Shown: in pieces, positions 27,488 to 32,077 of the stretch | Layout: every line of letters begins with the position of its first letter | Position numbering within the stretch: the first letter of the stretch is position 1 | NCBI GenBank assembly: GCA_027493955.1 | Contig: JAOSJT010000001.1 | Span: 3,521,131-3,585,130, forward strand | Origin: Bacteroidia bacterium | GTDB lineage: Bacteria; Bacteroidota; Ignavibacteria; SZUA-365 | DNA: 64,000 bases | Direction of reading: 5' to 3' | Made by a program: the position numbers and the translations under genes | The notes under the pieces: generated by a model | The model's database searches: none | The model's input: only the letters and a program-made list of their open reading frames with translations | Told to the model about the DNA's origin: nothing

Positions 27488-27524
27488 CGTACGGCTGCGG
27501 GATGCTCCATCCCGCAGCCGTACG
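27488..27524. terminator. 15-bp perfect GC-rich hairpin
   Basis: 27488-27502 pairs perfectly with 27510-27524 around a 7-base loop, 44 bases after the beta-helix gene. No T-tract follows, so it is not a canonical intrinsic terminator, but such a stable stem could block RNA decay or act with Rho. Confidence 0.55.
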
Positions 27525-28228: not shown

Positions 28229-28277
28229 CCGAAGCCGCGGAGTTCCTGTTGGGAAAACTGCCGCGGCTTCGGATTTC
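28229..28277. terminator. Strong hairpin between convergent genes
   Basis: A 12-bp perfect stem (28229-28240 with 28261-28272) encloses a 20-base loop whose ends can also pair (AGTTCC with GGAAAACT). It is followed by ATTT. It lies between the DinB-like gene and the leftward gene ending at 28300, so it may stop transcription from both sides. Confidence 0.65.
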
Positions 28278-28299: not shown

Positions 28300-29013
28300 C
28301 TACATCCCCGTTATCGGGGTTGCAATCTGATATTTTTTCGCTGCTTCGGCCTGCCAATAGTCGGCCGTCACGCGCCCACCCTCCGCAGTGATATGCACAA
28401 CGCCGGTTGCCTTGCTCTTGACAATGTTTGATGGCTGAAGCACCAGTTTGCCATTGGCCTTTACGAGTTCCCGCGATGAGGCCAGCTCTTTTCCGCTGTC
28501 ATCTCTGAAAGACAGTTTCACAATCGCGTCCTTACCGTCAGCGTTTGCGAGCACAATGTACACTTCCACACCGGGATCGGAAACGAAGTGCGGACACACA
28601 AGTTGGGCATATCCCTTCTTTTCCTGTCCGATAGTGGTCGTGTTCTTCCAGGACTCGGCCGCATTCTTGTAAAACTGCCAGTATTCCGCCACAATGTTTC
28701 CACCAGCGGATTCGATGTGTATTGTGCCGTTGGCAATCCTGTTGTCAATGTATTTCCCCGGATTCAGATTCAGTTTTCCGAACGGTTGCACGAGTTCCTT
28801 GCCCTCTCCGAGAAGCTTTCCATCGTTGTCATACAGCTTCATGGTTACGATGGGACCCTTACCTTCGACATCTGTGATGACCAGATGCGACTCGATGACC
28901 TTCGGATCAGACACGAAATGGTTGATGATGTAACGCTCCGAACCCTGTGCGTGAACACGTACCGCGGAAAAACTCACCGCGAACAGGAGCAGCAATAATG
29001 AGGTGTATTTCAT
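28300..29013 (-). CDS. Secreted protein with two HFVSDP...YWQ modules
   Basis: 237 residues: signal peptide (about 1-23), then two copies of a ~95-residue module (about 28-122 and 137-231). Each module opens with hHFVSDP, has a D(x)DGKxL or DDSGK turn, an NGKL or FGKL step, a GGxhxAxYWQ close and a short tail. I recognise no named domain. The upstream gene on the same strand (29 bp gap) carries two further copies plus an OmpA domain, so the pair probably works together in the periplasm or at the surface. The start at 29013 is preceded by GGAGG-like sequence (cggaggaatc) and is preferred over 29046. Confidence 0.8.
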   Translation of the reverse strand: MKYTSLLLLLFAVSFSAVRVHAQGSERYIINHFVSDPKVIESHLVITDVEGKGPIVTMKLYDNDGKLLGEGKELVQPFGKLNLNPGKYIDNRIANGTIHIESAGGNIVAEYWQFYKNAAESWKNTTTIGQEKKGYAQLVCPHFVSDPGVEVYIVLANADGKDAIVKLSFRDDSGKELASSRELVKANGKLVLQPSNIVKSKATGVVHITAEGGRVTADYWQAEAAKKYQIATPITGM

Positions 29014-29042
29014 GATTCCTCCGTTCTTCTTGTGTTTCCTGA

Positions 29043-30149
29043 TCACAGTTTTTTGAATTCGACCCGACGGTTGACCGCGCGGTTCGCAGGTGTATCGTTA
29101 CCTACGATCGGATTTTTCGGACCATATCCGACCGTGAGAAGCCGACCGGCATCGACTTTCCCGTTTTTCACCAGCCAATTTTTCACAGAAGCGGCGCGAC
29201 GCTCAGACAGCTTGACGTTGTAGTCTTCCTTACCCACGTTGTCGGTATGACCGGCGATTTCATAACGCGCACCTTTGTTTTTCGAATCGTTCATTGCCCG
29301 CGCTACTTCCAGCAGATCCGCTTCCGAGCGTTTCTGAATCTTGTCGCTGTCGAAGTCGAAATGCACGATTAGTCGTACCAGTGGATCCTCGACAATGGCC
29401 TCCTTCTCAGGTGCGCCTCCTTGCATTGCATGGGCGATCTGATACTTCTCACGTTCGGATACCTGCCAGTACTCGCCTGTGATCTTACCGCCTTCGGTTT
29501 GTATGTAGGCGACCCCGGTCATTTTCTTGTTTCCAACCAGGGCATACGGCTGGATGGAGAATTTTCCATTCTTCGGGATGGAGACCTTCGTCTGTCCGGC
29601 GAGGTCACCCTGATCATTGTAAAACTCGACGTAAACCGTCGGGCCGGTACCTTCGGCGTCAGCCACGACGAGATAACTCTCGATGGAAGGATCTGCGACG
29701 AAATGTTGACAAATCAGCATTGTGGAACCCGGAGCAACCGCGGCCGGTACCGCAATGTTTTTCCAGCCGAGCTCAGGGTTCTTGTAAAATTGCCAATACT
29801 GTCCCACCGCGTCGCGCGACGAGGTGATGCGCATGGTACCGACCATTGTGCGTCCGCGCACATATTTTTCGGGATTGACGTTCAGCTTTCCATTGGCGGG
29901 GATTGTTTCTTCCCCGTTCCCGACGAGCGATCCGCTCTCGTCATAGACGGCGATGTTGATCGTGCCTCCGCGTCCGCCGACATCGCTCACGACCAGATGT
30001 CCCTCCACCACCGCGGGATCGGAAACAAAGTGGTTGACGATCAACGTCTTGCCGGCCTGTCCCCAAACGGCGGAGGAGGTCAGAAACAACGCCAGTAGCA
30101 CCAGCGGAATGCTGACGTACCCGCCCGACACCCTCATGTGTACTGTCAT
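29043..30149 (-). CDS. OmpA-family protein with two HFVSDP...YWQ modules
   Basis: 368 residues: signal peptide (about 1-31), module 1 (about 35-131, NHFVSDP to GQYWQFYKN), module 2 (about 143-240, QHFVADP to GEYWQ), and an OmpA C-terminal peptidoglycan-binding domain (about 258-368). The last shows FDFDSDKI, AGHTDNVG, LSERRAASVKNWL and NRAVNRRVEF. The OmpA part anchors the protein non-covalently to the cell wall. It lacks the N-terminal OmpA barrel, so the modules replace it. GGAG lies before the ATG. First gene of a two-gene operon. Confidence 0.88.
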   Translation of the reverse strand: MTVHMRVSGGYVSIPLVLLALFLTSSAVWGQAGKTLIVNHFVSDPAVVEGHLVVSDVGGRGGTINIAVYDESGSLVGNGEETIPANGKLNVNPEKYVRGRTMVGTMRITSSRDAVGQYWQFYKNPELGWKNIAVPAAVAPGSTMLICQHFVADPSIESYLVVADAEGTGPTVYVEFYNDQGDLAGQTKVSIPKNGKFSIQPYALVGNKKMTGVAYIQTEGGKITGEYWQVSEREKYQIAHAMQGGAPEKEAIVEDPLVRLIVHFDFDSDKIQKRSEADLLEVARAMNDSKNKGARYEIAGHTDNVGKEDYNVKLSERRAASVKNWLVKNGKVDAGRLLTVGYGPKNPIVGNDTPANRAVNRRVEFKKL

Positions 30150-30559
30150 AGGTTCTCCGTGTTGTTCAGAATGTGAAAATCATCTGTAATATACGTTTCT
30201 GTCTCTTCCCGTGCATGTGAGATTTCTGTTCCGCTCTCGTACGATGCTGCATGCAGAGGGCTTCCGGTCTTCGTCTTTCATTTTCGGACCGCACTGTTTC
30301 CTGGTGCTGAGCGTGACGACTGCGTTCATAGGTATTTCCTCGCTTTGACGCTGATCACGTGAATCCGCCTTTTACCTTCCCCAGTCCCGGATCAAGAACG
30401 ATCCGTATCCTGCGTCCAGCGCATGGATGAACGCATGGAAACGGGATCACGTAAGAATCGATTTGGGGAATGGCGTATTTTCAACTCACGCAGCGGTCGC
30501 TTCACCCGGGTAATTGCGAGTTGTTGATGATTCTGGTCCCTCGTATTTTCTCTCGCACT
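30150..30559. other. Divergent intergenic region, 410 bases
   Basis: Separates the OmpA/HFVSDP operon from the rightward DUF92 fusion gene. No supported gene. A TATATT on the minus strand near 30188-30193 could be a -10 for the OmpA operon, but I found no matching -35. Confidence 0.4.
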
Positions 30560-32077
30560 ATGGATTTTCCAATACTCGATACAGAACTCATCCGCATTGC
30601 CAGTCTTTCGGCAGCGATCCTGCTTTTGCTTGCCGCTGTGGAGCTCATGCGCAGACGCTTCAGGATCCCGGTCGAGATTATCAGAAAATCGGTACATATT
30701 CTCACCGGCGTACTCATCGCCTTCGCACCACCGCTGTTCCCCCGCGGAGAGCCTGTCGTTTTCATTGCAAGCATTTTCGTTCTCTTCAATGCGCTCGCGT
30801 ACGCGCGTGGTTGGCTCACGGCGGTTCATCATACGCAGCGGCGCTCATACGGAACAGTATACTATCCCCTTTCCCTGCTCGTGCTCGCGGCTCTGTTCTG
30901 GGATGAGTACCCCGACCTCGTGATCGCCTCCATTATGGTGATGGCAATCGGAGATGCCGCTGCGGGGATTGTCGGGGAAAGCATGCGCCGACCCCATCAG
31001 TATGCCGTGACCTCCGACAAAAAATCGTTGGAAGGCAGCATGGCAATGTTCTCCGGCAGTTTCATCGCCTTGTTGCTCATATTGTCTGTTTATGGTGACA
31101 GTGGGCTGGATTTTTCCAGGCGATGGAACGCATCACCCGTTCTTGTTATCTCCGCATTGTTCGCCATTTCACTCTTTGCCACAGCTCTGGAAGCCGCATC
31201 CTCCAGAGGTCTGGATAATTTGTCCGTACCGTTTGCAACCGCCTTTGCCTTACACCTGTGTTTTGCATCCGGTGTGTCGAGTGATGCCATGCTCTTTCTC
31301 ACCGGCACGATATTGGGATCGGGTATCGCGTATCTCGCCTGGCGTTTGCGCATGCTCTCGCTCTCGGGCGCGGTGGCGACATTCATTCTTGCCACAATCA
31401 TTTTCGGAATCGGCGGGTGGAAATGGACGTTGCCGATCTTTACTTTTTTTATTCTTTCGAGCTCACTTTCCCGCTGGAGAAAAAATCAAAAGGCCGCGTA
31501 TGAAAGCATTTTCGAGAAAAGTGGAACGCGCGATGCGGGCCAGGTTATCGCAAATGGCGGTCTCGCCGCTCTGGTATGTGTAGCCTGGTATACGAGCAAC
31601 GATGAGCGACTCTACGTGCTTTACCTCATCGCCGTTGCGGTGGTCACAGCGGATACCTGGGGAACAGAAATCGGCCTGCTTTCCCGTTCCCACCCGCGAA
31701 GCATCCTGACGTTTAAGGAAGTCCCTCCCGGAACCTCCGGCGGTATCAGCATATTCGGAACGCTCGCTGGCGCCTTGGGAGCGCTCGTTGTCACCCTCAC
31801 CGCACTGCCCTTCATCAGTCTCACAACGGAAATTCTGGCCTTTGTGCTTCTCGCTGCGCTTGCCGGCAGCGCCATTGACAGTATCCTTGGAGCGACGGTA
31901 CAAGCGCAGTATCAGTGTCGGCATTGTGGCACACAGACTGAAAAACCGATTCATTGCAATGACGCGGCCACGCTTCTCCGGGGACAAGCCGTTGTCAATA
32001 ATGATGCGGTGAATCTCCTGTCAACCACGGCAACACTCCTCCTGGCCGGCATCGCCCTGCTGGCGCTGGGCTTATGA
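30560..32077 (+). CDS. Phytol/dolichol-kinase-like domain fused to DUF92
   Basis: 505 residues, about 13 predicted membrane segments. The N-terminal half (about 1-220) resembles the phytol kinase/dolichol kinase/CTP-dependent family (RKSVHILTG, AIGDAAAGIVGE, KSLEGSMAMF). The C-terminal half (about 260-505) is DUF92, the family of VTE6/TMEM19 (GxxTADTWGTEIG, PPGTSGGISIFGTLAG, AGSAIDSILGATVQ). In plants VTE5 and VTE6 phosphorylate phytol in two steps, so a fusion could salvage a prenol to its diphosphate. That is inference from the family. The start at 30560 gives a membrane-proximal N-terminus; the frame is open from 30470. Confidence 0.85.
   Translation: MDFPILDTELIRIASLSAAILLLLAAVELMRRRFRIPVEIIRKSVHILTGVLIAFAPPLFPRGEPVVFIASIFVLFNALAYARGWLTAVHHTQRRSYGTVYYPLSLLVLAALFWDEYPDLVIASIMVMAIGDAAAGIVGESMRRPHQYAVTSDKKSLEGSMAMFSGSFIALLLILSVYGDSGLDFSRRWNASPVLVISALFAISLFATALEAASSRGLDNLSVPFATAFALHLCFASGVSSDAMLFLTGTILGSGIAYLAWRLRMLSLSGAVATFILATIIFGIGGWKWTLPIFTFFILSSSLSRWRKNQKAAYESIFEKSGTRDAGQVIANGGLAALVCVAWYTSNDERLYVLYLIAVAVVTADTWGTEIGLLSRSHPRSILTFKEVPPGTSGGISIFGTLAGALGALVVTLTALPFISLTTEILAFVLLAALAGSAIDSILGATVQAQYQCRHCGTQTEKPIHCNDAATLLRGQAVVNNDAVNLLSTTATLLLAGIALLALGL

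Follow-up and report, generated by a model that had tools for sequence, protein, structure and literature searches.

Predicted tandem beta-sandwich proteins encoded by a conserved Ignavibacteria gene pair, one of them fused to an OmpA domain, as probable divergent relatives of the ASRAH superfamily

The ASRAH superfamily, whose structural representatives are the Anabaena sensory rhodopsin transducer (ASRT) and TM1070, has a fold made of two sets of four strands, and sugar binding has been proposed for it as a prediction covering the superfamily as a whole (De Souza, Iyer and Aravind 2009, PMC2739507). Both TM1070 and ASRT form tetramers. Exported families of the superfamily occur as dyads or tetrads, the dyads being thought to mimic the tetramers, and one such family is tied to a glycosyltransferase (PMC2739507). 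Peptidoglycan-anchored proteins of the OmpA, Pal and YiaD type constitute a second point of comparison for the locus described here. This is a pair of genes in a 64,000-nucleotide stretch of DNA (the window; positions 3,521,131 to 3,585,130 of contig JAOSJT010000001.1, assembly GCA_027493955.1) from a bacterium of the lineage Ignavibacteria; SZUA-365. The pair encodes exported two-domain proteins, A and B, of which A ends in an OmpA domain, and for which we predict an ASRAH-type fold.

Table 1. Features of the A/B locus and of the paralogous C/D locus (window positions unless stated otherwise)
Feature	Position	Strand	Details
Gene A	29043..30149	-	368 aa: signal peptide, two modules, OmpA peptidoglycan-binding domain
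Module A1	29742..30050	-	A residues 34-136
Module A2	29406..29726	-	A residues 142-248; single Cys147
Cys147 codon of A	29709-29711		
OmpA domain of A	29067..29360	-	A residues 264-361; Pfam PF00691, E 5.3e-24; Z 16.6 to 5wtl
Gene B	28300..29013	-	237 aa: signal peptide, two modules, without anchor
Module B1	28624..28941	-	B residues 25-130; Z 12.4 to 1nc7
Module B2	28303..28611	-	B residues 135-237; single Cys140; Z 11.1 to ASRT 2ii8; DUF5719 match
Cys140 codon of B	28594-28596		
A-B gap	29014..29042	-	29 bp from A stop to B ATG; carries GGAGG ribosome-binding site for B
Hairpin	28229..28272	-	12-bp stem, 28 nt past B stop; candidate transcription end, read from the sequence
Membrane protein with DUF92 domain	30470..32077	+	Divergent from A/B here; in family-mates co-oriented with A-B and directly after them
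Polysaccharide cluster ending in C and D	950534-960855 of the source genome contig (L005 535-10856)		

Each of the two proteins consists of two copies of one module of about 100 residues. The four modules can be aligned along their full length, and the BLOSUM62 scores of all six module pairs (131-264) lie 21-50 SD above those of shuffled sequences, of which the highest was 49, and thus far beyond chance. A preliminary description of the locus had recognized this arrangement of two adjacent leftward genes, 29 bp apart and with two modules each, and the motifs that it read, HFV(S/A)DP, GKL/GKF and YWQ, are indeed present in the modules. Both proteins begin with a hydrophobic signal region; no lipobox was found in either of them, nor any strong transmembrane stretch in their mature parts. 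Among the first residues of module 2, each dyad has a single Cys (A147, B140), which is unpaired and nearly invariant. The start codon of B is the ATG at 29013, preceded by a GGAGG Shine-Dalgarno sequence. Because of the short gap, the separate GGAGG site of B and the hairpin after B, in which no clear T-run was seen, A and B look like a closed operon. A perfect 17-bp inverted repeat with a 3-bp loop (27488-27524), probably a terminator, lies between a beta-helix gene and a DinB-like gene.

The source genome, a single contig of 5.24 Mb, encodes four dyads, namely A/B and, at 959-961 kb, the further pair C/D, and most genomes of the order carry both pairs. Profile searches detected the family in 16/16 genomes of the order and in one of about 375 genomes elsewhere in the class (391 were sampled across the class, including the 16 of the order), and a phylum-wide sample of 395 genomes yielded no further member; the dyad family comes close to marking the order, one of uncultured bacteria. 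All 41 family proteins are dyads, and the N-terminal leader is present wherever the contig is complete. The named relatives come from metagenome assemblies submitted under the names Ignavibacteria or Bacteroidetes, and no relatives were found on plasmids or viral contigs. The sole member outside the order (G022; L060 4846-5760) stands alone, its leader and dyad being separated by a Pro/Thr-rich linker. By maximum likelihood, each of A, B, C and D resolves as a single clade, C with weaker support than the rest (92/87); the A and B clades group together, as do those of C and D, the support for C-D falling below the star threshold. The OmpA domain is present in every A, and A adjoins B wherever the contig permits; the pairing seen in the window is kept in relatives. 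One B orthologue from a SZUA-365 assembly (L013 5967-6743) is split across two frames, by either a frameshift or an assembly error. In G006 and G007, genomes that are 100% and 96% complete, C/D is the sole pair, which indicates that A/B can be lost. A/B is a real, conserved and lineage-restricted gene pair.

The C-terminal domain of A matches Pfam PF00691 with 84.9 bits against a cut-off of 27.2 (E 5e-24), and in the structural model of A it matches OmpA C-domains at Z 16.6. The Asp of GHTD and the Arg of LSERR are invariant across seven aligned A orthologues. In OmpA-like domains such residues contact diaminopimelate, as in structure 3td5 with its bound peptide. Every NCBIfam OmpA equivalog listed scores A below its cut-off. 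Like OmpA/Pal/YiaD-type proteins, A has an OmpA C-terminal domain with the HTD and SERR residues, but its N-terminal part is a predicted sandwich dyad rather than a barrel or a lipoprotein tether. The replacement of the usual barrel was anticipated in the preliminary description, as was the coexistence of a wall-anchorable and a free form, and both points are supported here.

Mature B was modelled by AlphaFold2 from an alignment with 13 relatives (pLDDT 79.7, pTM 0.79). The model comprises two tandem beta-sandwiches with the strands in the same order in each, an order that fits the two sets of four strands of ASRAH. Plain Foldseek ranking of this two-domain model was uninformative, with TM under 0.3; the decisive comparison was a second look with VIA-align. 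It matched B to TM1070 (1nc7) at Z 12.4 and rmsd 2.3, with 107 of 116 residues aligned, and to ASRT at Z 11.1 over 82 residues. ASRAH structures score Z 9.8-12.4, whereas the next chain listed is unrelated and scores Z 6.4, and none of the remaining ones scores higher. The two modules of B match ASRAH structures independently, B1 aligning with 1nc7 and B2 with ASRT, and both modules superpose much better on these structures than on the other chains listed. The full-length model of A is of low confidence (pLDDT 68.7, pTM 0.40), with the OmpA domain well placed; its modules show the strand order of the B modules, and the matches listed for it are filled by OmpA chains, so that its sandwich part does not appear among them, which neither supports nor weakens an ASRT match for A. 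We predict that the two-domain part of both proteins adopts an ASRAH-type beta-sandwich. The modelled modules share a fold, those of A in the less confident model, and the refuting outcome named in the preliminary description, modules that differ in fold, was therefore not seen.

The corresponding link at the sequence level is weak and thin. B scores 30.6-31 bits against Pfam DUF5719 (PF18986), above the cut-off of 26.2, while A (12.2), D (11.1) and C (none) stay below it, and 23/41 relatives match at E up to 1. DUF5719 probably corresponds to the exported ASRAH dyad lipoprotein of actinobacteria described by De Souza et al. 2009. Elsewhere in the phylum, unrelated type IX secretion tails reach 23-25 bits, so the score of B is only about 5 bits above such chance-like matches. 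The phylum proteins in that range were rejected as relatives, being type IX secretion C-terminal tails, and weak CHU_C (type IX tail) matches in 8/41 members were likewise rejected, as they are below the cut-off and fall on a strand-turn-strand pattern. ASRT itself weakly matches DUF5719 from strand 2, the same start as in the match of module B2. Against an ASRT profile of ten sequences, with 200 column shuffles as control, the module-2 profile scored 21.2, narrowly above the best shuffle (20.9), and the module-1 profile gave no signal, 54/200 shuffles being as good. The ASRT Pfam model PF07100 (cut-off 25 bits) finds no match in the source genome at E up to 1, and none in A, B, C or D. The signature Trp of ASRAH at the start of strand 1 is absent from both modules of all 41 dyads; half of the A rows do show a Trp, which belongs to the signal peptide and not to strand 1. 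The nearly invariant ASRAH Asn at the end of strand 2 is present in module 2 of 8/10 B, of all C and D and of G022; all copies of module 1, and 11/12 of the module 2 copies in A, have Asp at this position. For A, C and D, no Pfam or NCBIfam model exceeds its cut-off over the module, searches of NCBIfam and PHROGs assigned the module to no family, and searching solved structures with a single sequence or a 41-row profile returned nothing credible.

Because the signature Trp is absent, we regard A and B as probable divergent relatives of ASRAH and not as proven members. In contrast to ASRT and TM1070, which are single-domain cytoplasmic proteins, they are exported dyads, and they lack the SHExxC motif as well. 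DUF5719 proteins share with B export and two sandwich domains, which in B are predicted; unlike the 2009 actinobacterial lipoprotein, A and B have no lipobox and A has the OmpA fusion, and the WhiB or metallopeptidase neighbours of that family were not found here. The earlier view that the module is undescribed stands insofar as the family is unnamed, and this new family includes an OmpA fusion absent from the 2009 ASRAH account. It falls as regards the predicted fold, whose superfamily is already known, and the statement that there is no named domain finds no support in that form, given the DUF5719 match of B and the predicted resemblance to ASRT/TM1070.

The best functional clue comes from C and D and points to surface polysaccharide. 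Their cluster begins with a GDSL esterase, a PIG-L deacetylase, two glycosyltransferases and a polysaccharide flippase, continues with hexapeptide and GNAT acyl/acetyltransferases and a second PIG-L deacetylase, and ends with C and D, downstream of which are further glycosyltransferases. It is conserved in eight further genomes of the order, although some contigs span only part of it. The tie of C/D to glycosyltransferases parallels that of the 2009 actinobacterial family (PMC2739507). The neighbourhood of A/B itself is not glycan-specific, consisting of a DUF92 protein in the source's family and of housekeeping genes in another. We propose, as a reading whose chances we judge evenly balanced, that A and B are exported dyads of ASRAH-type eight-stranded beta-sandwiches whose ligand is a glycan from the envelope of the organism itself. 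The OmpA domain of A would keep this interaction at the peptidoglycan, and B would be its unanchored partner, either binding the same or a related ligand or assembling with A through dyad-dyad contacts. C and D would be the counterpart serving the surface polysaccharide made by their own cluster.

The fold match might instead be a coincidence of a common beta-sandwich architecture in an independent family. The performance of module 1, no better than shuffles, the missing signature Trp, the nearness of the DUF5719 match to noise and the silence of PF07100 in the source genome would all fit such a coincidence. It leaves unaccounted for the wide gap in Z between ASRAH structures and all others, the independent matching of both modules with almost full coverage of the 116-residue TM1070 chain, and the in-register weak sequence matches by two routes, through ASRT and DUF5719 and through the module-2 profile; we consider it improbable. 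Somewhat less improbable, if still unlikely in our estimate, is that the modules bind no sugar and serve in the envelope as structural spacers or for protein-protein interaction. A would then be an OmpA-type stabiliser of outer membrane and wall whose dyad provides a platform for assembly, with B and the paralogues as subunits of an exported assembly. That the four paralogues are strongly conserved without obvious catalytic residues speaks for this, as do the tetramers of TM1070 and ASRT, which dyads are thought to mimic (PMC2739507), and the nearly invariant Cys could join subunits. A purely structural role does not, however, predict the tie of C/D to polysaccharide synthesis in eight further genomes.

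The gene next to A/B suggests yet another role, in which A and B are assembly factors for lipid-linked glycan synthesis and form, with the DUF92 gene, an operon handling a lipid-carried periplasmic precursor. The DUF92 neighbour may be polyprenol-kinase-like. Wherever the contig of a family-mate extends to the DUF92 gene, A, B and that gene follow each other in this order with a common orientation, and no full-length DUF92 neighbour gene was found in G006, G007 and G012, three genomes without A/B. Two other genomes (G013, G014) nevertheless have A/B without the DUF92 gene, and A/B in the window is inverted relative to that gene and its followers (28300-32077) and divergent from it; no inverted repeats that could explain the inversion were found flanking A/B. 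We rate a role in this lipid step as very remote.

The glycan-binding reading of A and B can be carried further, to a picture that we hold to be doubtful, in which the four dyads, two encoded within the polysaccharide cluster and one fastened to peptidoglycan by its OmpA domain, physically link a dedicated polysaccharide layer to the wall in a system that defines the order. If true, the dyads would hold a glycan coat in place without recourse to a lipoprotein or an S-layer. Little work has been done on this predicted sugar-binding fold, and the findings add a new lineage to its range, one represented here mostly by metagenome assemblies, as well as a new architecture, fusion to a peptidoglycan anchor. 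Together, the near-universal presence in one order, the constant pairing of the genes and the location of the paralogues in a polysaccharide cluster amount to a concrete binding hypothesis, which could give the exported ASRAH-like domains a function.
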